DNA of 64,000 bases from the NCBI GenBank assembly GCA_001312325.1, contig BBDJ01000024.1:16922-80921 (forward strand), written 5' to 3'. This DNA comes from Lysinibacillus pakistanensis. GTDB taxonomy: Bacteria; Bacillota; Bacilli; Bacillales_A; Planococcaceae. The translations under genes were made by a program, and so were the position numbers. Positions 11,475 to 24,559 of the stretch are shown here, piece by piece. The notes below the pieces were generated by a model that had not been told where the DNA came from, made no database searches, and worked only from the letters and a program-made list of their open reading frames with translations. The stretch's first letter is position 1. Each line of letters starts with the position of its first letter.

Positions 11475-12774
11475 TTATTTCAAGGGTATATCTACTTTTT
11501 GTGTTCCCTCTAAATAGAGTTCATCTGTAATAAAAGAAAGACGAACTGGATTGGCAACTCCATTTAGATTCAATATTTCAATTTGCTCAGTCAGATAGTC
11601 ATTATTACTATTTATATCTTCACTTTCTGCGTCTACATCATAATCATTTGCATCTGTTGCATTCCCATTAAATCCTTTTATATAACTTGAGGTTGGTATA
11701 TTTAATGTCACCATTGGTTTTTCTACTTTAACTTGTAACCCTGGAATAGATGGCTTGGATACCACTTTGTTTTGATTAAAATCTACATCTATATAATCCT
11801 GTTCTTTTCCTACTATCAATACTTTGCCAATAGATAACGTTAACTTCTTGGGCTCTCTAAAGTAATTACTTTGCATATAGTACGTTGTTCCTTCATCCAC
11901 TGATCCTGTAGCAACTGTACCTCTATCGATTGCAGACCATTCCTCCCCTTTTTCATCCAAAATACGTATATCATCGAAATCAACAATTTTTTCCTCATTA
12001 TTGGGGTCAAGTGCGATTGTTACACCTGTACGAATTGGTGAAATAGAGACTGACTTTACCGTAATATTCTGTCCTTCGAAGCTCATTTTCTCATTCAATT
12101 CATAGATCTCTGCTTTCGCAATTCCTTTTTTTAAGTGCAAATGGAAACGTAAATTCAGTTTGTTTTTCATCCGCAAATTGTATATATAATTCAAATTGGG
12201 CATTTTCATAATTTATTGGGTCAAAGAATGTAACAATCAGATTGTCTTCAATTTGAAAAACTTTTTCCTCACGATATCGGTGAAAATCTACTTGGGCATG
12301 TACTGCTTCACCGTTTAATCGAAGCTCTATTTTCTCAGTAACTGAATCACTAAGATCCATTGGTGAAGAAATTTTATAGGGTAAAATCATCCCTGTTTCA
12401 TCGGCAATTACCCCCTGAAGTGTAAACGATAAGTCATTTTTGGTTTGGGTTTGCCCTAATTCCTCATAATAGTGATGATCAAGGATATCAGCAACACCTT
12501 TATCATACGTAATCATCTGTACAAGTGGTGCAAGACCTGGAATATTACTAACGACACTAGCAAAAGCGGGAGAAAAACGGATAGTTCCCACAAAAATCAT
12601 TAGAAGTGCACAGGTTAGAGCCATGCCTTTCCATATTTGCAGACGTTTGCGGTTTTCTTTTCGATAGCGACGGACACTTTCCATACGTGCCGCAGCTAGT
12701 TGATCATTTGGAACATGAATTTGTGCTAATTCCTGGACAAATGTATCATAGTCATACTTTTCTTCCTTCTTCAT
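11475..12774 (-). CDS. DUF4179-type anti-sigma factor
   Basis: About 430 residues. Residues 1-45 form a charged cytosolic segment that would hold the sigma factor; one membrane helix follows (I-W-K-G-M-A-L-T-C-A-L-L-M-I-F-V-G-T); and a large extracytoplasmic beta-rich part follows, typical of DUF4179/DUF5643 anti-sigma proteins. A T7 run at 12124-12130 splits the frame; removing one base joins the halves. Its ATG directly follows the sigma-factor stop (TAGATG), so the two are co-translated. Role: holds the ECF sigma factor inactive until an envelope signal arrives. The signal is unknown. Confidence 0.8.
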
Positions 12775-13252
12775 CTACAATTCCCCTTTCTCCTGAAAAT
12801 AAAGTCTTAGCTTTTTTAATGCCGAATGCAATCTAGATTTTACAGTACCTTCTGGTATATTTTGAATGGCAGCAATATCTTGATTTCTATAGTCATGAAA
12901 ATATTTTAGAAAAATAAGCTCCTGTTGCTCCTTTGGTAGTTTGGTAATGATATCCGTCATTTCAAAGCGGTCGTGGGTATGTACGTTTTCTTCAATCTCA
13001 ATATCTTCCTGCAAATGAAATCGCATACTTTTATTACGCATATCATGACAAACATTTAGTAAAATTCGAACAAGCCATGTACCAAAATAAGCTGATTCTT
13101 TTAATGTATGTTTCTTTTTTTTAAGCTTCGATAAGTAGCTTCTTGTACAGCCTCAATAGCATCATGCTCATTTTTTTAAATAGGCAAAGGCCATACGATA
13201 CATGGTCTGTTCATATTGTTTAAGTAAATATAAAAAAAGCTTGTTCATCCAT
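12775..13252 (-). CDS. ECF-type RNA polymerase sigma factor
   Basis: About 157 residues when joined. The N-terminal M-D-E-Q-A-F-L-Y-L-L-K-Q-Y begins region 2, and a clear region 4 helix-turn-helix lies near the end (I-P-E-G-T-V-K-S-R-L-H-S-A-L). The ATG at 13252 sits behind AAGGAG. Three homopolymer runs (near 13123, 13172 and 13232) break the frame, and one base removed at each restores it. It pairs with the anti-sigma gene. A TGAAC element upstream on the minus strand (around 13290-13310) could be part of an autoregulatory ECF promoter, but that is weak. Confidence 0.8.
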
Positions 13253-13325
13253 CTTTCTCACTCCTTACTACTAATTAGACTGTTGAAATGACTATATCGT
13301 TCATTTTAATTTTAGATTTCTTCAT

Positions 13326-13366
13326 AAAAAAAGAGAAACGTCAAAAATCAACGTTTCCCTTTTTTT
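13326..13366 (-). terminator. Terminator of the lactone catabolism operon
   Basis: GAGAAACGT (13333-13341) pairs with ACGTTTCCC, with an A7 run that reads T7 on the minus strand. It lies just after the Fe-alcohol dehydrogenase stop. Confidence 0.7.
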
Positions 13367-13368
13367 CT

Positions 13369-14550
13369 TTATAATTGGTGAGGCTCTCGCATTTCTCCAT
13401 CAAATGCAGCTCGATAAATCGTATAGATATCTTCTCGTTCTAGCAGCATCGGACTTCGTGCTAAGATTCTTGTTTGTTTTGTTGCATCGTCCGTTAATTG
13501 CTCTAAGGCATCTTCTGGTATATTAAACCCTTTTAAAGTAGAAGGAATATTAACATCTTGAACAAGTTGTTGTAATGCCTCTACACATTTATAGGAAGCC
13601 TCTTCTTGCGATAAATAGGCAGATGAGATACCCATTGCATCTAAAATATCCTTCATACGTTTTTCACAGCTTTGACGAATATATCCCATGACATATGGTA
13701 AAAGCACTGCATTGGAGTCACCATGAGCTATATGGAATTGACCACCTAATGGATAGGCTAGAGCATGTACACCTGCTACTCCAGCATTGAAGAAGGCCAA
13801 GCCAGCTAAATAACTACCATAGCTCATATCTGAACGTGCCTGCCTATTTTGTCCTTCATGGACAGCCGTGCGAATGGAGCCACTAATTAAGCGAATTGCC
13901 TGTAGTGCAAGGGCATCGGTCACCTCATTGGCATTGATTGAAACATATGCCTCAATTGCATGTGTTAAGGCATCTACACCCGTTGCAGCCGTTACCTTAG
14001 GTGGTAATGAAATCGTAAGCTCTGGGTCTACGATGGCAATATCCGCCAATAAATAGTCATGTGTCACAACGTCTTTTGTTGTTTCAAGCGACAACACAGA
14101 AATATTTGTCACTTCTGAGCCTGTTCCAGATGTAGTTGGAATTAAAATTTTGGGTAATCCTTTTTGTTCAAGTGTTTTTGTACCTGTTAAATTTAAGTAA
14201 TCTGCCACTTTTCCATCATGTACTGCTAAAACTGCAGCAAGCTTGGCTAAATCTAGAGCACTTCCGCCACCTAATCCGATGACTAGATCAAAGTGATGTT
14301 TCCTAGTAAAGGAAACTAGCTTTTCTCCAATAGCAAGTGGTGGCTCTGGAGCAATATCTGTATAAATCGTAGTCGCATATCCTTTTGAAAGCAAGGGTTG
14401 TTCGATTTTATCTGTTAACCCTAGTTCTTTTAAAAATGGATCTGTGACAATTAAAATATTGGTAGCTTTAAATCTTTCTACTTCAGGTAGAAGCTGATGT
14501 AAACATCCCCAGCCTGTATAACTTACAGGAGTAAAGGTTAATTTATGCAT
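13369..14550 (-). CDS. Iron-containing alcohol dehydrogenase, probable 4-hydroxybutyrate dehydrogenase
   Basis: 393 residues, intact, group III Fe-dependent dehydrogenase. Visible motifs: the NAD-binding G-L-G-G-G-S-A-L-D near residue 95; T-T-S-G-T-G-S-E-V; and metal ligands D (V-D-A-L-T-H-A-I-E), H (V-H-A-L-A-Y-P-L) and H (F-H-I-A-H-G-D). It is the last gene after an AHL-lactonase-like hydrolase and a semialdehyde dehydrogenase. That is the blcA/B/C set of Agrobacterium, in which this enzyme oxidises 4-hydroxybutyrate to succinic semialdehyde. The family call is firm; the substrate is inferred from context. Confidence 0.85.
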   Translation of the reverse strand: MHKLTFTPVSYTGWGCLHQLLPEVERFKATNILIVTDPFLKELGLTDKIEQPLLSKGYATTIYTDIAPEPPLAIGEKLVSFTRKHHFDLVIGLGGGSALDLAKLAAVLAVHDGKVADYLNLTGTKTLEQKGLPKILIPTTSGTGSEVTNISVLSLETTKDVVTHDYLLADIAIVDPELTISLPPKVTAATGVDALTHAIEAYVSINANEVTDALALQAIRLISGSIRTAVHEGQNRQARSDMSYGSYLAGLAFFNAGVAGVHALAYPLGGQFHIAHGDSNAVLLPYVMGYIRQSCEKRMKDILDAMGISSAYLSQEEASYKCVEALQQLVQDVNIPSTLKGFNIPEDALEQLTDDATKQTRILARSPMLLEREDIYTIYRAAFDGEMREPHQL

Positions 14551-14567
14551 AAATGATCTACTCCAAT

Positions 14568-15413
14568 CTATTCATAGTGACCTTCCGTCGATTTTCTAAA
14601 TGATTTAAACTGGACAGGATCATGACCAAACCAAACCTGTGAATTCGTTTCATTAGCAAGTCTGCGAATTCGTTCAACGGTAGAATTATAGCCAACCGAA
14701 TCATAAATAATTCCTGGTGGCTTCACAGGTGGACCAAAGCTTTCTGCTGTGTAAATGGCATCTGAAGCTAAAATAATACCACCCGTTTCAGGCATATTAA
14801 TATGAAGGCCAAGCATACCCCAAGCATGGCCACTGCCAAAATTCAATACTTGAATCCCTTCCGCAAGCTTCACGTTGTCCTCACCGCGTTTAATGAGTCG
14901 CCATTGTAGATTATTTTTAATCCACATATCAATGTCACCCCAAATATAGGCACCTTCTTTTACATTTCTTGCATAGGTTTGGAGTGTTCCATTGAATTCA
15001 TCTTCCTGTACAATAATCGTCGCATTGGTAAACAGTTCTAAGCAGCCTGCATGATCGAGATGCAAATGGGAAGCAACTACATATTTGATATCCTCAGGAC
15101 GAACGTTTAATTCTTCTAAACGATGATGTAAATAGCATTCTTCTGGCATATTAATAGGGAATGCTTTTTGTGTAAATTCTCCCCAACGCCCTTCAGGTCC
15201 CATCGAGTTTGGATTACATGCAGTATCAAATAAAATTTTGCCCTCTGGATGATCAATTAACACTGTATATACTGGAAATTCTACAAATTCATTTGGCTGG
15301 TTTGGATGATCGATAGTTGCTGGATTATGCATAGCAATCATATAGTTTTTATCCATTCGCATCGTACCATTGTCCATTACATACAATTTTGGGTGTTGTT
15401 TGATGATGTTCAT
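14568..15413 (-). CDS. Metallo-beta-lactamase-fold lactonase, BlcC/AttM/AiiA-like
   Basis: About 281 residues. The dinuclear zinc site of the AHL lactonase family is complete: H-L-H-L-D-H, then G-S-G-H, then S-D-A-I-Y (Asp and the Tyr three residues later) and F-G-H-D. These match AiiA H104/H106/D108/H109, H169, D191/Y194 and H235. I prefer the ATG at 15413, with GGAG at good spacing, over the in-frame ATG at 15428. It lies between the aldehyde and alcohol dehydrogenases. Likely reaction: opening gamma-butyrolactone to 4-hydroxybutyrate. Acyl-homoserine lactone hydrolysis (quorum quenching) is a possible side activity, as in AttM. Confidence 0.85.
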   Translation of the reverse strand: MNIIKQHPKLYVMDNGTMRMDKNYMIAMHNPATIDHPNQPNEFVEFPVYTVLIDHPEGKILFDTACNPNSMGPEGRWGEFTQKAFPINMPEECYLHHRLEELNVRPEDIKYVVASHLHLDHAGCLELFTNATIIVQEDEFNGTLQTYARNVKEGAYIWGDIDMWIKNNLQWRLIKRGEDNVKLAEGIQVLNFGSGHAWGMLGLHINMPETGGIILASDAIYTAESFGPPVKPPGIIYDSVGYNSTVERIRRLANETNSQVWFGHDPVQFKSFRKSTEGHYE

Positions 15414-15434
15414 TTTTCCCATCTCCATTCATGA

Positions 15435-16862
15435 TTAATTGTTATTCCAAATAACAAGCTTCATTTCTGTCATTTCCTCGATTGCATACTTAATGCCCTC
15501 ACGACCTGTGCCACTTTCTTTTACGCCACCATACGGCATATGATCTACACGATAGGTCGGCACGTCATTGATAAGGACACCTCCTACATGTAATGCCTTT
15601 GAAGCCTTAAAAGCAGTCTCTATCGATGGTGTAAAAATACCTGCCTGTAAGCCATAATGAGAATCGTTAACAGCTTCTATTGCCTCCTCTATAGTAGACA
15701 CTGAATTTACGATCACAACTGGTGCAAAAATTTCTTCACATGATACTCTGCTATGTGAGGATACGTTGGATAAAACAGTTGGCAGTAGAACATTATTTTC
15801 AATATGGCCACCAGTTATTATTTTTGCCCCTTCAGCAGCCGCTTCTTTAATCCATTGAAGGGCCCGTTGTTGTTCCGCTTCTGAAATCATCATGCTATAT
15901 CCGTTGTTTGGTCAAGAGGATCACCAATAATAAGCTGTGCTACTTTTGCACTTAGCTTTTCTAAAAACGCTTGCAACATACTTCCATTACATATATCCGT
16001 TGTAATGAGATACATACCTGACCTTGATTTGAAAATGCCCCCATTACAATTCGGTCCATCATCTGATCAAGCTGAACCCCTTCGTCAACAATCACCCCTG
16101 CATTTGAGCCTAATTCTAATGTTACCTTTTTTTAAACCAGCACGATTTCGTAATGAAATCCCTACAGCAGGACTTCCCGTAAACGTTATCATTTTTACAT
16201 TTGGATGTGCTAAAAATACATCTCCTACTAATTTCCCTTGCCCAGTCACTAGATTAAAAGCGCCTGCTGGTAAATTAGTTTGTGCCAATAATTTCGCTAG
16301 AAAATGGGCAGATAAAGCTGTTTGAGTAGCTGGCTTTAACACAATCGTATTACCCGCAGCTAAAGCTGGACCCACCTTATGCGCTACGAGATTTTGTGGA
16401 AAGTTAAATGGTGTAATAGCTGCAATAACGCCTATTGGTTCTCGGATTGTATAAGCAAAGCGCCCTTCTCCATTTTTAGAAGCGTCCATCGGAATCATTT
16501 CGCCAGATAAACGTTTTGCTTCCTCTGCTGCAAATTTATAGGTTTCAATCGTACGATCAATTTCAGCATAGGCATACTTTAATGGCTTTGCTGATTCTAG
16601 TGAAATAATACTAGCTGCTTCCTCACGATTTTCCAAAAACAATCTAGATAGATGCTCTAAAATTTCTGCTCGTTGGAACGCAGTTAAGGCTGCCATTTCA
16701 GAGGCTGCTGCTTGTGCACTTTCAATGGCATACTGTACATCCTGTTCAGTTGCATCGCAAACTGTGCAATTACCTCTTTCGAATAGGGGGCTTGAACCTC
16801 CATAAATTCGTCTGTCATTTGCCATTGTCCATTCATCCATAAGCCCCTTTTCAAGACTTCAT
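15435..16862 (-). CDS. Aldehyde dehydrogenase, succinate-semialdehyde type (frame broken)
   Basis: Reconstructs to about 475 residues with the ALDH motifs in order: I-T-P-F-N-F-P; the NAD fold F-T-G-S-P-A-V-G; the general base in L-E-L-G-S-N-A; and the nucleophile in N-Q-G-Q-V-C-I-S. C-terminal motifs follow, such as M-P-Y-G-G-V-K-E-S-G-T-G-R-E-G. The ATG at 16862 follows GAAGGAGTG. Breaks are more numerous and varied here: one extra A in the A7 run near 16129, and apparent single-base losses near 16853, 16761, 15985 and 15896. So this gene could be genuinely decaying rather than just miscalled. Context suggests succinic semialdehyde to succinate. Confidence 0.75.
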
Positions 16863-16881
16863 CACTCCTTCCTTCATTATG

Positions 16882-16923
16882 GTTACGTATTCATTTCTGA
16901 ATATAAAGAAATGAATACGTAAC
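16882..16923. promoter_or_regulatory. Perfect 16-bp inverted repeat between lacI and the lactone operon, candidate operator
   Basis: GTTACGTATTCATTTC (16882-16897) is exactly repeated in inverse at 16908-16923, with a 10-base AT spacer. It lies 20 bp upstream of the aldehyde dehydrogenase start, and neither side gives a convincing terminator for the operon. It is the natural place for a LacI-type or other dimeric regulator. The promoter itself is unclear. Confidence 0.55.
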
Positions 16924-16934
16924 ATTTTTGGTGT

Positions 16935-16964
16935 AAAAAAACAAACTGACATTTTATCAGTTTA
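16935..16964 (-). terminator. Terminator of the LacI regulator gene
   Basis: AAACTGA (16943-16949) with TCAGTTT (16957-16963), followed on the minus strand by T7. It overlaps the proposed lacI stop and separates lacI from the operon it probably controls. Confidence 0.7.
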
Positions 16965-17967
16965 TTTTCTTACACGTTGTATTTCTTGGGAAAAGTTTAA
17001 CAGATTCTGTTTGCTGTATGCAAGTACTTTTTTTTCTCCATGACCTCAAATAATTTTTCAATTGCCATAAATCCAAGATTTTTTTTCTGATTCTAAACCT
17101 ACCGTTGTTAAGGCAATAGAATGATGCTTACTAAGCTCGACATTATCTATACCTATTACGTTAAAATCCCCTGGTACCCTATAGCCTTGCGCTAAGCATA
17201 AATTTAATATTTCAATCGCTATAGCATCCGTCGCAGCACAGAAAGCAGTTGGTCGCTTTGGAAGCTGCACGATCTCTTCAAAAACTCGTTCAATATCAAT
17301 TTTATTGGTATTTGTAAAAAAAGACGGCATTGCTTTTGCATCAATCTGATGATCCTCTAAGGCCTTTTGAAAGCCTTATACCTTCCATAAAAGGTACTCA
17401 TTTCATGAGGACCACCAATCCAACAAATATCTCGATGACCTAAAGATAAAATATGATTTGTCGCGATATATCCAGCTTCTACATTATTTATCTCTACAAA
17501 ATGTCTATTTTCTTGATGCTTGCGATTAAACATGATAAAAGGTATGCCTAATTTTTCTAGCTTAAAAAAATAAAGGATCGGTATACAGCATAGACGATAA
17601 AATAATCGCATCAGCCTTCGTTTCTAAAACAGAATTATAAATCGTGTCTAAGTTATCCTCCGTTCCAAAATAAACATGAACTTTATAGCCCCGAGCATTG
17701 ACATAGTTAACAATTGCTGTTGTTGAATCAACAAAAAAAAGGATTGTGTAAAGGTCCTGAAATCAATGTAATTGTCCCTGTTTTTTGCTGAACAAGTGAT
17801 CTCGCTATATCATTTGGAATATAGTTTAATTCTTCAATCGCCCTCATTACCTTTTCAATTGTTTTCGGCTTAACTAACTCAGGCGTATTTATTACTCTAG
17901 ATACAGTTGTTTGAGAAACACCTGCATACTTTGCCACATCTTTTGAAGATACCAAAAAACCACCCAT
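16962..17967 (-). CDS. LacI-family transcriptional regulator of the lactone operon
   Basis: About 330 residues when joined. The N-terminus is a classical LacI helix-turn-helix: S-S-K-D-V-A-K-Y-A-G-V-S-Q-T-T-V-S-R-V-I-N. A periplasmic-binding-type core follows, with G-H-R-D-I-C-W-I-G-G, then A-A-T-D-A-I-A-I-E and G-I-D-N-V-E-L-S. The tail reads L-N-F-S-Q-E-I-Q-R-V-R-K in the restored frame. Breaks lie at A/T runs near 17735, 17566, 17077 and 17027, and one missing T near 17367. The start could be the ATG at 17967 or a TTG 12 bases later. It lies immediately upstream of the lactone operon and likely represses it, whereas Agrobacterium uses an IclR-type protein. Confidence 0.8.
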
Positions 17968-18061
17968 TTCATCTTTGTAAGCCTATTTTATACCATTACA
18001 GGGATAATGTTAATAGACAGTCATAGATGTATAATGAGTGATTTAACTTTTTGAAAGGTAT

Positions 18062-19282
18062 TTATTTTTTTTCGATCATACGGCATTGCTGCTTCACTCG
18101 CCTTAAAATTATAAACAGGTTTAATAACTTTGATTATATCCACCGTTTCTTCAATAGCCGATGTAATCTCTATCATTGGCTTGTAGGCCATAGGAGCCTC
18201 ATCTAATGTTTCTTCATTTACGGATGTTGTCCATATACCTTGCATTGTTTCTTTAAAATCAGCCATATTTAATGTCGCTTTAGCTGCTCGTCTAGAGTAC
18301 ATTCGCCCTGCTCCATGAGGTGCTGAGAAATTCCAATCCTCATTTCCTTTTCCCACACAAATCAGCGAGCCGTCTCTCATATTCATAGGAATGACTAATT
18401 TTTCTCCTTTATTGGCACGAACTGCTCCCTTTCGTAATGTCATGGTATCTGTATCAATATAGTTATGAATAGTATCAAAGGTTTCATTAAAATTCCAGCC
18501 CATATGCTGAGCTATTGTTTCAGCAATGATCCAACGATTCATTCGAGCATATTGCTGCGCGATTTTCATATCATGCATATAATCATGGAAAAACTCGCCT
18601 TCTAAATAAGCTAAGTCTTTAGGAACTAAAGGGTTTTGTTCTTTGTGGGCCTTTATCATTGCTTGTATTTCTTTGTGACGCCCCTGTTCTTTCAGCTCAT
18701 CAATCTTTACTGTTAAATCCTCTCGACGCAATGTTTCATAGGCTCTCTTTTGATGCCAGTTAGCTACTTTGGCGCCAACATATCGAGAGCCAGTATGAAT
18801 TAATAAATAATGGACATCGTTTTCGTCTTTTGCCAATTCGATGAAATGATTTCCTCCACCAAGTGTACCTAATGATAGATTGGTATATTCATCCTTTATT
18901 CCGCTCGCCTTAAATTGATTTCCTTCAAATTCTATAAATTGGCGTGTAGGTGAAACTTCAGGATGAACGTCCTGCCCACTAGGTACATAATCTCTAATAG
19001 TTGCATCCAGCTTAGCAAAATCAATAGCTGATGCATCCAATTCTGCTACAAAAACACCACAGCCAACATCAACACCGACAAGGTTAGGGACTACTCGATC
19101 TTGTAGCTGAATAGTTGTGCCAATTACACATCCCTTCCCTGCATGGTAATCTGGCATAATTCGAATTTTCGTGCCTGCCATAAAGGCTGATCTGTTAATT
19201 CTTGAATTTGATCAATAGCTGATGGCAGTGCGGTTTTAGCATAAATTTTCGCTTCTGTAAAACGTCCGTTCACAGTAATCAT
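18062..19282 (-). CDS. rtcB: RtcB-family RNA 3'-phosphate ligase
   Basis: About 405 residues. Motifs for the Mn2+/GTP active site are visible: G-V-D-V-G-C-G (Cys ligand), L-G-G-G-N-H-F-I-E, H-T-G-S-R and the guanylylation-region H-G-A-G-R. The start is the ATG at 19282 behind GGAGGG. One missing A near 19180 separates the first 33 residues from the rest, and the T8 run near 18065 shifts the end; with one base removed the protein stops after D-R-K-K. RtcB joins RNA ends with 2',3'-cyclic phosphate in RNA repair. No archease gene is adjacent. Confidence 0.85.
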
Positions 19283-19335
19283 AAAAATCCCTCCTCCCTA
19301 ACTATACGGACAAATACCATCATTTGTTTCAAATG

Positions 19336-19376
19336 AAAAATGTTCTAAAAGTTGACAATACTTTTAGAACATTTTT
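19336..19376. terminator. Bidirectional terminator downstream of the dynamin-like gene
   Basis: Perfect 16-bp stem (19336-19351 with 19361-19376) with A/T ends on both sides. Confidence 0.85.
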
Positions 19377-19384
19377 CTAGCATC

Positions 19385-21246
19385 TTACTCCTCATAATAA
19401 ATATCTAATTTTTTCGGTATGTCTGGAATATCATTTGATTTTACATCTGTTTCTATTAAACTTAATGCATAAATTGGATATTTATCTTGAACATCAAAAG
19501 GAATTGCAATGCTTTCCATCTTATTATTCATTTGGCTTCGTGCAAGAATACCATTATAAGATAAATCAATGCTCATAATACTATGGATTGTCTCTTTTAG
19601 CATTTCAAGGTCTTTTGCTTTAAGCGGCATTTGTCCATTTAATAAAAACGGCTGAATGTTTTCCTTAATATAGCCCTGTGCTTCGATTAAACAAGAAAAT
19701 TCATTTAATTTATTGGCATATAATTTTAATTGGCGTTTTTCTTTTGAACGCTGTTGATTGAGCTCTTGTACCTTTTGCTCAATGCGTTGCAAACGTTTTT
19801 TTCGTTAAATCCATTAGATAGCTTTGGATAGGATGAATAGCCTGAAGCATGATTGCCTCTGCTTCCTGTATTTTCTCAAACTGTTCAATACAAACAGCCT
19901 GCTGCTCATTTAGCTTATTCACACGTTCCTTGAAAAATTCATTTTGGGTATGCTGACCAAAAATTGCTTTCATTAATCCTTTTCCATGAATTTTTTTTAT
20001 GCTGTGCATCCAATCGATCATATTCACGATTATATTCGCTATACATATTGCGATATTCTCGAAGCACTTGCTGATAATGTATGGCCTTTTCTGTAAAGCC
20101 TTCTACAATGTTGTCCTGCAAATAGTCATTCTGAGAAATAGTTTGTAATAGCTGATATAATGTCTGAACATTTTTAAATACATTGGCGACATCTTCATAT
20201 TCTTGTTCATATTCTGTGACAATCGTTAAATCGCGTTGATAGCGAGAAAACTCATATTGAGTATCGCCTGCAAATTTTTCAATGTTCTCAACGGCAGATT
20301 GGAATGGATCACGTTGAGGAATCACAGTTAATTCAAAGCGAAATCGTTCTAGCCATTGCAAAAAGCGAATTAAAATAGCATACGTTTTTTTTATCACTAT
20401 TTTCTGCAACTCGATGAATTTGTGTGATTAATTGCTCATATTGGCTCTTATGCCATAGCTCATCATTATTAGTTTGTTGAGCCTTCAGTGCATTTGTTGC
20501 TGAGATAGGAATAAAATCACTGACTAGATGACCAAGTCGTTCTCTCTCCGAAAGAATAAACCCCTCTGTTTCTTCATTCGAATCTATCCCATTTATCACA
20601 CAATGTGGTTCAACACCTTTATTTTTTTAAGGTCTCCATTAATAATATTTCCGCATCAATGGCCATAGAACCTGAGCGTAAAACCCAAAAAATTTCATCC
20701 ACTCGATTAATTAATGACTCAGAGAAGTAAGCTCTTTCCCCACCGCCAGCTTCCAATGACACTGAATCAATAATTGTTACTGACTTTAATAAATCATTTT
20801 TTTAGATAAACCTCCAAGTAATCTAAATGCTCCCGTAATATTTCCGATGCGAAAGTATCACCAGTTGTCAGTAATTCAAGCTTACTCATATCAAATATTG
20901 CCACAACACCATCCAAAAAATAGGCTCTTATTTCTTCATGTTCGCCATATCGCAAAAATGTATTTACGCCAGTTGGATGCTGTTCACTCACAGGTAAAAC
21001 GTGACGTCCTAAAAGCCCGTTCACAAGTGTTGTTTTGCCAACACGCTCTTTTCCCACAATAAGAATCATCGTTTGATTATTGGCATCCTGTATAATTCGA
21101 TTAAGATGCTTAGCTGTGTCTTTTACATATGTATTCTGTACGATGATGCCATGCAATTGTCTTAAACGATCAACAAGCTGTGGTAAAATATTATTTGCTG
21201 AGGCTGTATTTTCGATTGGCAGGTTGTCAATGTTTGTCATCCTCAA
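19385..21246 (-). CDS. Dynamin-family large GTPase
   Basis: About 620 residues after joining five frame fragments at A/T runs near 20796, 20616, 20386, 19993 and 19797. The N-terminal GTPase shows a P-loop G-K-E-R-V-G-K-T-T, the G2 threonine in H-P-T-G-V-N-T, and a D-S-V-S-L-E-A-G-G-G switch region. The remainder is long helical sequence with heptad-like Leu and many Glu/Lys, fitting a membrane-remodelling stalk. Bacterial dynamins tubulate or repair membranes. This one is shorter than B. subtilis DynA, which has two GTPase units. No operon partner is seen. Confidence 0.75.
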
Positions 21247-21443
21247 AACCTCTTTTCGTATGTATCTATAAGTCCATTATAAATGATACGAATCCTTTTC
21301 TAATACATAGTACTAAGAAATATTGACAAAAAAAGGACAAAATACTTACATAGTGTCGTCAAAATTAGGAATTATATCATGTATATTTAATTATCTATTA
21401 CGTATATTATTCCCTATTATTGAGAAAATAAATTTTATATCTA

Positions 21444-22334
21444 TTATTCTTCTAATCCAGCCATACGTGCATATACCTCTCCAAGTGTTGGCATGCCAGC
21501 TTGAGCGCCAAATTTCTCTACGGATAAAGAGGCTGCAATGTTAGCAAAATATAGAGCCTGATCTAATGACTGACCTTCAACTAAAGCATAGGCAAGTGCT
21601 CCGTTAAACGTATCACCTGCACCTGTTGTATCTACCGCTTTTGTCATATAAGCTGGCACATGAATCTGATATTCCCCATCAAAATAGCGAGCTCCCTCAC
21701 TACCTAAGGTTATAATCATTTTATTTGGATATTTTTTTAAAATAGTGTCAAAATCATCGCCAAAAATTTCTGCACATTCTGTTTCATTCGGTGTAATATA
21801 CGAAATATCTTCCATCCATTGGACATCAAAATTAGCTGCTGGAGCAGGATTTAATAGCACAGGTATTTGGGCTTCTTTGCATAATTTTATGGCATAGGCA
21901 ACAGTTTCCTTGGGAATTTCGAGCTGTATAATGACCATTTGACTTTGCTGAATAATTTCCCTTGCCGCTTCGACCTGAGCAGGCTTTAACTCATAATTTG
22001 CGCCAGGCACTACAATAATGCGGTTATCTTGATTATAGATTAATATATTTGCAATCCCAGTAGGCACTGCCGTACTTTTAATGGCCTTAGTTTGAATTGA
22101 CTCTTGCGATAAAACCTTTCGTAGGGTATCACCAAAGCTATCATTGCCTACACAGCCAATCATTGAAACTTCGCTTCCAAGACGTGCAGCAGCAATTGCC
22201 TGATTGGCCCCCTTACCGCCTGGTGCCGTTTTAAACGCTGAACCAAAAATCGTTTCACCTTGCTTTGGAAAAGTATCCATTTGTACAACCAAATCCATAT
22301 TAAGACTCCCAATAACTGTAATCATCTTTTTCAC
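21444..22334 (-). CDS. rbsK: Ribokinase
   Basis: 296 residues, intact PfkB-family sugar kinase. Substrate loops G-G-K-G-A-N-Q-A near residue 39, N-P-A-P-A mid-protein and the catalytic D-T-T-G-A-G-D-T-F-N-G-A near residue 246 are all present and are ribokinase-like. It phosphorylates ribose to ribose 5-phosphate in the cytosol. No ribose transporter or RbsR lies beside it in this window, so it may be a stand-alone scavenging kinase. Confidence 0.9.
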   Translation of the reverse strand: MKKMITVIGSLNMDLVVQMDTFPKQGETIFGSAFKTAPGGKGANQAIAAARLGSEVSMIGCVGNDSFGDTLRKVLSQESIQTKAIKSTAVPTGIANILIYNQDNRIIVVPGANYELKPAQVEAAREIIQQSQMVIIQLEIPKETVAYAIKLCKEAQIPVLLNPAPAANFDVQWMEDISYITPNETECAEIFGDDFDTILKKYPNKMIITLGSEGARYFDGEYQIHVPAYMTKAVDTTGAGDTFNGALAYALVEGQSLDQALYFANIAASLSVEKFGAQAGMPTLGEVYARMAGLEE

Positions 22335-22477
22335 TACCTTTCATTGCTTATATTCTATCGAAAAAAACATGATAGGAACAAGAATAACGAGCGGTTTTTT
22401 CTCCCAGCTGAGCGGTTTCCCCTTACCCGAGCATTCACCATCCTCCATTTAACTAGCAACATCTAACTGCAATTAAA

Positions 22478-22512
22478 AAGACTGAAGACAATTGTACCTC
22501 GTCTTCAGTCTT
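22478..22512 (-). terminator. Terminator of the ilv-leu operon
   Basis: 12-bp stem AAGACTGAAGAC with GTCTTCAGTCTT, followed on the minus strand by T5. It lies 16 bases after the leuD stop. Confidence 0.85.
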
Positions 22513-22527
22513 AAGGAAAATCATCTA

Positions 22528-23118
22528 TTAAAATGCCATACGTTTTGCTTCGTAAGCAGCAATTTGTTCCTCGTATTTAATCGTTAAAGCAATTTCATCC
22601 CAGCCATTTAGTAATGTTTCTTTATAATAAGAATCGATGTTAAACTTATAGACGTTTCCATCTTCACCAGTTACTGTTTGAGCTTCCAGATTGACTTCCA
22701 TCATGTAAGGTTTAGCGAGACCCTTTGCTAAAATTTCATCACATTCTGCTTCAGTTAGCTTAATTGGTAAAATACCATTTTTAAAGCAGTTATTATGGAA
22801 AATATCTGCAAATGATGGTGCGATGACAACATTGAAGCCATAATCTAGGATAGCCCATGGAGCATGTTCGCGAGAAGAACCACATCCAAAGTTATCCTGT
22901 GCTACTAAAATTTTGGAGTTTTTAAATTCAGGTTTATTCAATATAAAATCTGGAATTTCATTACCCTGTGCGTCAAAACGCCAATGGTAAAATAAAAATT
23001 GTCCAAAGCCTGTGCGCTCAATTCGTTTTAGAAACTCTTTCGAAATAATTTGATCTGTATCTACGTTTTTACGATCAAGTGGCGTTATGACACTATTCAC
23101 GATATTAATTGGTTCCAT
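22528..23118 (-). CDS. leuD: 3-isopropylmalate dehydratase small subunit
   Basis: About 196 residues, intact. Motifs D-T-D-Q-I-I and the swivel-domain signature F-G-C-G-S-S-R-E-H-A mark the aconitase small subunit. With LeuC it isomerises 2-isopropylmalate to 3-isopropylmalate. I chose the ATG at 23118; an in-frame TTG lies six bases upstream. Last gene of the ilv-leu operon. Confidence 0.93.
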   Translation of the reverse strand: MEPINIVNSVITPLDRKNVDTDQIISKEFLKRIERTGFGQFLFYHWRFDAQGNEIPDFILNKPEFKNSKILVAQDNFGCGSSREHAPWAILDYGFNVVIAPSFADIFHNNCFKNGILPIKLTEAECDEILAKGLAKPYMMEVNLEAQTVTGEDGNVYKFNIDSYYKETLLNGWDEIALTIKYEEQIAAYEAKRMAF

Positions 23119-23149
23119 GTTCAATCATCCCTTCCGTGTAAAAACAAAC

Positions 23150-24559
23150 TTACACCGTTTCCTTTACAAATTCACGTACATCCACAAAATGTCCAGCAAT
23201 TGCTGCGGCTGCTGCCATTGGTGGTGAAACAAGGTGTGTACGAGAACCTGCTCCTTGGCGCCCTTCAAAGTTACGGTTGGATGTAGATGCACAGCGTTCG
23301 CCAGCAGGTACAACATCATCATTCATAGCTAAACACATGGAGCAACCTGATTCACGCCATTCGAAGCCTGCTTCTGTAAAGATTTTATCTAACCCTTCTG
23401 CCTCAGCTTGCTTTTTTTGTAGAATGGGAACCTGGTACAACGATTGCTGTGACATTATCATGTACCTTTCTTCCTTGGATGACACTTGCAGCCGCACGTA
23501 AATCACTGATGCGTGAGTTTGTACAAGAGCCAATAAATACGTGTTGGATATCGATGGATGTTAATGGTTGCCCTTCTTTTAAGCCCATGTAGGTAAGTGC
23601 TTTACGAAGTGCTGCTTTATCTGATTCATCCTCGTAATCCGCTTGTGTTGGAACAGTTCCTGAGACACCTGTACCCATTGAAGGATTTGTTCCCCAAGTA
23701 ATGATTGGCTCAATTTCTTCTGCTTTAATGATACGAACTGTATCATATGTTGCGTCCTCATCAGAAGCAAGGCTTACCCAATAGGCTGCCGCTTCATCAA
23801 ATTTTTCGCCTTGAGGTGCATATTTACGACCACGAATATAGTCAACAGTTATTTGGTCAGGTGAAATAAGACCAGCTTTTGCACCTGCTTCAATTGACAT
23901 GTTACAAATCGTCATACGTTCTTCCATTGAAAGCTTGTGGATAGCCTCTCCAGTGAATTCCACAATATGTCCTGTGCCAACGCCGATACCGAATTTAGCG
24001 ATAATTGCTAGAATAATATCTTTTGCAGCTATACCAACAGGTAGTTCACCTTCAACACGAATTTCCATTGTTTTTGGCTTATTTTGCCAAAGGGTTTGTG
24101 TTGAAAGTACATGCTCCACCTCAGACGTACCAATACCAAAGGCAATAGCTCCAAAGGCACCGTGTGTGGATGTATGGGAATCACCACAAACAATTGTTTT
24201 ACCAGGCTGTGTTAAGCCTAATTCTGGTCCAATAACATGAACAATGCCCTGATCAGGTGCCCCATTCCAGCTAGCTCGACACCGAATTCTTCAGCATTTT
24301 TAGCCAAAGTTTCAATTTGATTACGTGCAATTGGGTCATTAATCGTTGGTAGATTTTTAGTAGGGACGTTATGATCCATTGTTGCAAAGCTTAAATCTGG
24401 ACGACGCACCTTACGTCCGTTCATGCGCAGACCTTCAAAAGCCTGCGGAGAAGTAACTTCATGAATTAAATGAAGATCAATATATAACAGGTCAGGTTTG
24501 CCCTCTTCCTGATAAACAACATGTTTATCCCAAATCTTTTCAATTATATTTTTGCCCAT
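23150..24559 (-). CDS. leuC: 3-isopropylmalate dehydratase large subunit
   Basis: About 469 residues when joined. Begins [11 protein letters not shown]. The iron-sulfur ligands are in [10 protein letters not shown] (first Cys) and [10 protein letters not shown] (second and third Cys). One C appears to be missing near 24262 (C-A-C-C where the family needs C-A-C-C-C) and one extra T sits in the T7 run near 23412-23418. The ATG at 24559 follows AGGTGAAG. Forms a heterodimer with LeuD. Confidence 0.92.

Follow-up and report, generated by a model that had tools for sequence, protein, structure and literature searches.

The DNA analysed here, a stretch of 64,000 nucleotides from Lysinibacillus pakistanensis (contig BBDJ01000024.1; the window), carries on its minus strand a compact locus in which the gene of a LacI-family regulator is followed by genes for an aldehyde dehydrogenase (ALDH), a metallo-beta-lactamase-fold (MBL) lactonase of the AhlS/GcL family and an iron-containing alcohol dehydrogenase (Fe-ADH), with two copies of an operator-like site between the regulator gene and the other three (Table 1). 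An earlier note on this DNA had proposed this gene set, and both the set and its coordinates fit: The Fe-ADH and lactonase genes are intact open reading frames (ORFs), and ALDH and LacI are present though frameshifted. The coordinates of the two broken genes were mapped from their intact counterparts in G001, the nearest comparison genome, which is 99% identical in nucleotides over window positions 12700-19300. In G001, the ALDH matches PF00171 at 509 bits, and the regulator matches both PF00356 (the LacI helix-turn-helix) and PF13377 (a periplasmic-binding-like domain) above cut-off, which bears out the earlier note in assigning the adjacent regulator to the LacI family and not to the IclR type.

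Table 1. Genes and predicted regulatory features of the locus in window coordinates.
Feature	Position	Strand	Remarks
LacI-family regulator gene	16957..17967	-	frameshifted in the window; intact in G001 (335 amino acids)
ALDH, predicted succinic semialdehyde dehydrogenase (SSADH) of ALDH21-like type	15435..16854	-	frameshifted in the window; intact in G001 (473 amino acids)
AhlS/GcL-family MBL-fold lactonase, predicted entry module	14568..15428	-	intact ORF
Fe-ADH, predicted 4-hydroxybutyrate dehydrogenase	13369..14550	-	intact ORF; PF25137, PF00465
Operator-like site, LacI-proximal copy	16911..16926	unassigned	one base short in the window, intact in G001
Operator-like site ATGGTTACGTATTCAT, ALDH-proximal copy	16879..16894	unassigned	inverted relative to the other copy; 32 bp start to start
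Promoter-like TTAACA-17-TAAAAT just upstream of the LacI gene	~18013-17985		mapped from L001; scan: 4 matches versus 6.5 expected

By model score and structural likeness, the lactonase is a member of an already described quorum-quenching family, AhlS/AdeH/AidP/GcL: It passes the family model NF047976 (548 bits, cut-off 475), fails the AttM/BlcC model NF045700 (139.8 bits, cut-off 390), and matches GcL structures (6n9i, E 8e-164) far more strongly than the AiiA entries or 2r2d (AiiB; E 2e-69). The full metal site described by the earlier note is complete (H121-x-H123-x-D125-H126, H201, D223-x-x-Y226, H269) and invariant among eight aligned sequences, and the protein is 98% identical to that of Lysinibacillus sp. 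ZYM-1. AdeH from Lysinibacillus Gs50 (PMC5135098) and AidP from Planococcus (PMC6240239) are characterised lactonases of N-acyl-homoserine lactones (AHLs), the activity of GcL is broad, and AaL, a relative whose structure has been solved, accepts gamma-butyrolactone as a substrate with a kcat/KM of 1.4e5 (PMC6062542). The word 'operon' is absent from the main text of PMC5135098, PMC6240239, PMC6062542 and PMC7459623. What is new for this family is the catabolic operon context, as opposed to the enzymes, which were already known.

The earlier note had suggested searching other genomes for the same neighbourhood, and the unit of lactonase, alcohol dehydrogenase (ADH) and ALDH is kept well beyond this strain. 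In a sample of 200 genomes of the family, 53 have AhlS matches with E values of 1e-50 or lower, a total of 54 copies with the G157 copy at a contig end; neighbours were counted within 4 kb by tblastn, since greedy ORF calling misses AhlS in six loci. An ADH accompanies 48 of the 54 copies and both an ADH and an ALDH accompany 41, while a LacI-type regulator adjoins the unit in 26. Outside the family, both partners occur in 10 of the 16 loci counted in a first set of 36 (the other 20, from Lysinibacillus, Sporosarcina, Planococcus and Planomicrobium, were left out) and neither in three (L035; L040, a distant Acidisoma copy; L041, cut by a contig end). A class-level search found AhlS in 28 of 250 genomes, 21 of them outside the family: Among the 20 counted, 11 have both partners and two have neither, and L266, which was left out, holds a Zn-type ADH (Zn-ADH) and a 36%-identical ALDH. 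Because the 5.25 Mb of G001 contain 17 matches to ALDH and 6 to Fe-ADH, chance adjacency would amount to a few percent (about 3% for ALDH and 1% for Fe-ADH, rough values that exclude the Zn-ADH background and apply to genomes that are not independent).

The arrangement of the unit varies considerably. The order LacI-ALDH-AhlS-Fe-ADH is found in Lysinibacillus and Sporosarcina, LacI-ALDH-Fe-ADH-AhlS, which equals a blc-like A-B-C order, in L105-L108 and L118, and LacI-AhlS-Fe-ADH-SSADH in g2. Another type reads AhlS-ALDH2-Zn-ADH, often with a second Zn-ADH in front (13 loci have ALDH2 with Zn-ADH); outside the family, a divergent PAS/sigma-54 activator accompanies ALDH2-AhlS-Fe-ADH or AhlS-Zn-ADH-SSADH. 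A Planococcus ALDH was excluded from the partner counts, its distance from AhlS being about 5 kb. Enzyme families are exchanged with the step kept, Fe-ADH for Zn-ADH and one of three ALDH groups for another: Regulator, ADH family and ALDH family change, and the three reaction types, as predicted from the encoded proteins, are constant.

The second conserved element is the operator-like site, which is 16 bp long, palindrome-like and nearly invariant. Either ATGGTTACGTATTCAT or its reverse complement lies between LacI and the operon in all 26 LacI-type AhlS loci of the family sample: in Lysinibacillus as an inverted pair with 32 bp from start to start (eight genomes), in g2, g18 and Sporosarcina as a single copy, and in L118 as two direct copies. 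In the window, the LacI-proximal copy is one base short at a CC pair. Of 261 family genomes, 56 contain the exact site and none the reversed pattern; an order-level site search comprised the same 261 genomes. When the looser pattern ATGNNTACGTANNCAT was applied to the same eight Lysinibacillus genomes, six had only the two sites, G064 had one further match and G190 two, and the reversed control matched only in G179. Within the window alone the site is unremarkable (2 matches versus 3.1 expected at up to two mismatches), so the case for it rests on its conservation. Places with the exact site away from the 54 AhlS copies yielded 30 further loci, the site in G157 at the far contig end being left out. 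Among the resulting 84 loci, 56 have the exact site and 55 of these a LacI orthologue (at least 45% identity) within 300 bp, L167 being the exception. LacI-family regulators bind near-palindromic operators with a central CG and are released from them by a ligand, and we infer that the LacI protein binds the 16-bp site. A terminator or RNA element was considered for the inverted repeat and rejected: In L001 it is terminator-like on the plus strand, opposite to the operon, and Rfam gave no match in window positions 12000-24000. A DNA site fits better because g2, g18 and Sporosarcina have a single copy and L118 direct copies.

The 30 further loci reveal an exchange at the position of the lactonase. 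In 19 of them, the same LacI type and the exact site precede a permease, ALDH and Fe-ADH, with no lactonase; three hold AhlS in genomes outside the 200-genome sample (L173, L189, L191), and eight have neither permease nor lactonase (L166, L167, L171, L174, L175, L177, L187 and L188, the last cut by a contig end). The class sample adds the permease set with slightly different sites (L262, L263) or with an SSADH (L261). Among the 90 lactonase loci counted, some of them cut by contig ends, none has the permease within 4 kb of AhlS. A tree of 57 LacI sequences, of which 28 belong to lactonase loci, 22 to permease loci and 7 to neither, requires seven changes of the lactonase label (at least six of them on account of branches with good support) and two of the permease label. 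Both occur at separate places in G006, G043, G118, G156 and G164, where the lactonase cluster is of the Zn-ADH type; G371 and G428 also hold both. The permease comprises 461 amino acids, has no Pfam match above cut-off and resembles PDB entry 7tak, 'PurT', at E 4e-109; as the alternative entry module, it has a substrate predicted only from the neighbourhood. In the openly licensed literature, we found no mention of DUF3360 and nothing apparently related to PurT (Colwellia, transporter, 7TAK). At one of the loci with neither module, L166 (1374-7207), the order is LacI, ALDH2, a gene of 166 amino acids, a sodium:solute symporter and Fe-ADH (50%); this symporter may represent a third type of entry module governed by the operator.

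The permease also links these operons to blc. Eight plasmid records carry a relative of it, of which four were examined. On the plasmid of Agrobacterium tumefaciens MWF001, the relative (69%) lies beside genes for an SSADH, an IclR regulator, an Fe-ADH and a lactonase (69, 60, 85 and 94% identity to BlcA, BlcR, BlcB and BlcC, respectively), and on that of Thioclava sp. FTW29 (72%) beside IclR, SSADH and Fe-ADH (42, 72 and 67%). The other two are without the set: The Fusobacteria plasmid has an Fe-ADH and no ALDH annotated nearby, and the Halomonas relative lies among acyl-CoA genes. L267 has no ADH or ALDH near. Relatives below 42% identity (nine places in eight class genomes) were not used as support, and four of these loci (L268-L271) have no reference neighbour other than the permease. 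A knock-out of attL in Rhizobium leguminosarum is said to abolish growth on gamma-hydroxybutyrate, a statement for which the source cites unpublished data (PMC4313370).

The Agrobacterium system itself, blcRABC/attJKLM, leads from gamma-butyrolactone to succinate and shares with the locus the three reaction types, a regulator beside the operon and a lactonase able to hydrolyse AHLs. The regulator is the IclR-type BlcR there and a LacI protein here, and identities amount to 34% between ALDH and BlcA, 33.5% between lactonase and BlcC and 40% between Fe-ADH and BlcB, the latter compared with 33-35% to FucO and YiaY. Moreover, the earlier note had equated the A-C-B order of the window with that of Agrobacterium, which is mistaken: There the order is blcA-blcB-blcC. 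Its proposal of a blcABC-like pathway consequently stands as far as the kind of pathway is concerned, with ALDH, Fe-ADH and MBL lactonase together in the window and GabD-like enzymes only in sister operons, and falls if a transferred blc operon is meant. A further system is the qsd operon of Rhodococcus, whose QsdA is a phosphotriesterase-like lactonase. With QsdA and QsdR, it shares Gram-positive lactone catabolism of which quorum quenching is a part; it has a TetR-type regulator and an acyl-CoA ligase, and the terms alcohol dehydrogenase and aldehyde dehydrogenase are absent from the main text of the source (PMC6476934). Judged by title among the matches listed, no operon of the kind found here is described in the openly licensed literature (searched for blcABC or butyrolactone in Firmicutes, for a Lysinibacillus lactonase with dehydrogenases, and for a 4-hydroxybutyrate operon with permease and SSADH).

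The substrate of the two dehydrogenases is indicated mainly by the ALDH partners. In six lactonase operons with the same LacI type (L092, L093, L099, L100, L189, L191) and one such permease operon (L261), a GabD-like enzyme replaces the window-type ALDH. Two of these were scanned against the SSADH model TIGR01780 (cut-off 646.35) and pass (L092, 680.4; L261, 661.2), as do BlcA (737 bits) and the ALDH of L264, a permease locus with a sigma-54 activator (689); the other five GabD-like enzymes were placed by similarity only, and L246, L252 and L256 from outside the family score just under the cut-off (639-643). The closest solved relatives of the window-type ALDH are three bacterial-type entries and ALDH21. 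The two arginines aligned to ALDH21 positions 121 and 457, to which carboxylate roles are ascribed, are kept in 47/47 window-type and 26/26 ALDH2-type enzymes. ALDH21 is an NADP-dependent SSADH (PMC7823795). We predict that the window-type ALDH is an SSADH and the Fe-ADH a 4-hydroxybutyrate dehydrogenase.

From the gene neighbourhoods, we consider it likely, with a probability of roughly two in three, that the locus is a LacI-repressed catabolic operon that converts 4-hydroxybutyrate to succinate and takes either the lactonase or the permease as its entry module: The LacI protein would bind the site, which in Lysinibacillus is an inverted pair spaced by about three helical turns, and would repress the operon until a compound of the pathway releases it, 4-hydroxybutyrate and succinic semialdehyde being the likeliest candidates. 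The fixed core of Fe-ADH and ALDH would oxidise 4-hydroxybutyrate via succinic semialdehyde to succinate, the lactonase would supply hydroxy acids by opening small lactones (gamma-butyrolactone and/or relatives), and the PurT-like permease that takes its place in sister operons would presumably import the hydroxy acid. The C4 acid is favoured because of the GabD-like SSADH partners in sister operons and the permease common to blc-like operons. AHL cleavage, a real activity of the AhlS family, probably plays a secondary role in the operon. Somewhat more tentatively, we suggest that one LacI repressor and its near-invariant 16-bp operator may govern 4-hydroxybutyrate oxidation across many Planococcaceae-type genera, the entry step being repeatedly swapped between the lactonase and the PurT-like permease, which would then be a 4-hydroxybutyrate transporter shared with Alphaproteobacteria blc-like operons.

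Several observations weigh against this assignment. The Fe-ADH fails the 4-hydroxybutyrate dehydrogenase model NF058672 (243.9, cut-off 500) and scores higher on the lactaldehyde reductase model, also below its cut-off (297 versus 523). The window-type ALDH fails TIGR01780 (no match at the 1e-110 limit), is without the two arginines of GabD and has as its best NCBIfam model lactaldehyde dehydrogenase, again below cut-off (513.7 versus 650); its acid-binding arginines could serve other substrates. Among the outside loci counted as ALDH-positive, L257 and L258 have enzymes only 35-36% identical to the SSADH reference, and that of L257 scores best as a betaine-aldehyde dehydrogenase. Neither ADH nor ALDH accompanies 6 of the 54 family AhlS copies. 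AidP, reported to be close to AdeH and GcL, is described as inactive on gamma-butyrolactone and homoserine lactone (PMC6240239). For AaL, gamma-butyrolactone is the substrate with the highest KM, and kcat/KM is greater on C4-AHL and delta-lactones (PMC6062542). The route drawn by the earlier note, from lactone via hydroxy acid and semialdehyde to the acid, stands as the best one with succinic semialdehyde favoured, and its starting compound, gamma-butyrolactone, is an unproven candidate for the physiological substrate of the lactonase.

Further counter-evidence comes from the regulator. In L187 (5003-11865; genome G180), this LacI type and two exact sites precede genes for an Fe-ADH, a thiolase, a 3-hydroxyacyl-CoA dehydrogenase and a crotonase-like protein, with no ALDH nearby; this LacI gene is the second of G180, and the set also includes a sodium:solute symporter. 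L171 and L175 have LacI-ALDH-Fe-ADH without lactonase or PurT-like permease beside acyl-CoA-type genes, the neighbours being an AMP-binding ligase, an enoyl-CoA hydratase-like gene (by eye) and a GntP-type permease. Because these three loci place LacI and site beside acyl-CoA-type genes, the regulator ligand may differ or be broader, and any identity given to it is a guess. A survey of LacI proteins names nucleobases, nucleosides and proteins as non-carbohydrate effectors, and its main text does not mention hydroxybutyrate, butyrolactone, lactonase, alcohol dehydrogenase or Lysinibacillus (PMC4052901).

A rival reading keeps the operon logic and changes the substrate, which would be a delta-lactone or another hydroxy acid (for instance 5-hydroxyvalerate, oxidised to glutarate, or a substituted gamma-lactone), so that the semialdehyde used by the ALDH would be a longer one. 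In its favour, the ALDH of the window is not GabD-type, and AaL has a higher kcat/KM on delta-valerolactone than on gamma-butyrolactone (PMC6062542); we nevertheless regard this reading as unlikely, since the SSADH partners and the shared permease point to a C4 acid. Primary quorum quenching, in which the lactonase would be maintained because it destroys the AHL signals of competing Gram-negative bacteria and would have its present neighbours by coincidence, would agree with the degradation of AHLs by AdeH of Lysinibacillus and AidP (PMC5135098, PMC6240239) and with five Planococcus-type family AhlS copies that lack ADH and ALDH, but it is improbable in view of the repeated co-occurrence with ADH and ALDH, the shared operator and the swap with the permease on the LacI tree.

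The frame breaks raise the question of whether the operon is decaying in this strain, with ALDH and LacI as true pseudogenes. Several frameshifts reduce the ALDH to fragments at 15435-15893 and 16085-16840 and LacI to fragments at 17058-17330 and 17357-17611. Over positions 12700-19300, however, all 18 indels between window and G001 fall into homopolymer runs of at least two, 12 of them into runs of at least six, and the Fe-ADH and AhlS genes, which have no run of six or more, show no indel. As all indels relative to a 99%-identical genome are homopolymeric, the breaks in ALDH and LacI are likely sequencing errors; given also the two indel-free genes and the intact G001 copy, the locus is probably intact in nature, and we consider decay very improbable. 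Homopolymer indels break neighbouring genes as well, namely an ECF sigma/DUF4179 pair and an RtcB-family gene, and the frame of a dynamin-like gene at about 19385-21246 is broken too (by eye); gene predictions for this assembly therefore call for caution. Least credible of all is dedicated AHL catabolism, in which the N-acyl-homoserine released from AHLs would be oxidised at its primary alcohol to N-acyl-aspartate: It is chemically possible for ADH and ALDH, and the lactonase family takes AHLs well, but no conserved acylase-like family was recognised in or beside the Lysinibacillus operons, whose neighbours are only partly annotated, and the SSADH-model partners and the sharing of the permease would stay unexplained.

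AHL lactonases of the AhlS family have been studied as quorum-quenching tools with their native role left open, and operon context, operator and permease exchange make this role directly testable. If the LacI-controlled 4-hydroxybutyrate system extends across genera as suggested, the AhlS/AdeH/AidP/GcL 'quorum-quenching' enzymes would at heart be lactone-catabolic, and the ligand classes of LacI proteins would come to include a short hydroxy acid or semialdehyde, another kind beside the non-carbohydrate effectors named in the survey (PMC4052901). The locus further offers a candidate for an inducible promoter whose control site is exactly delimited, and it predicts what a family of permeases transports. 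Should the operator behave as expected, Lysinibacillus cells growing on 4-hydroxybutyrate or simple lactones would be induced for quorum-quenching activity, a point of relevance to biocontrol use.

Some minor observations concern the surroundings of AhlS elsewhere. In a Planococcus group (L020, L022, L024, L025, L027-L030, L032), AhlS immediately follows an aspartate kinase-like gene and adjoins oppositely oriented homoserine-pathway-like genes (by eye), with Fe-ADH kept in four of these loci and missing in five. G032 has two AhlS copies (L074, L075), one of them on a contig of 329,482 bases. In L110 and L113, a Zn-ADH-type AhlS cluster is joined by CoA-transferase III-, enoyl-CoA hydratase-, acyl-CoA dehydrogenase- and PrpD-like genes (by eye), hinting at a different lactone substrate.

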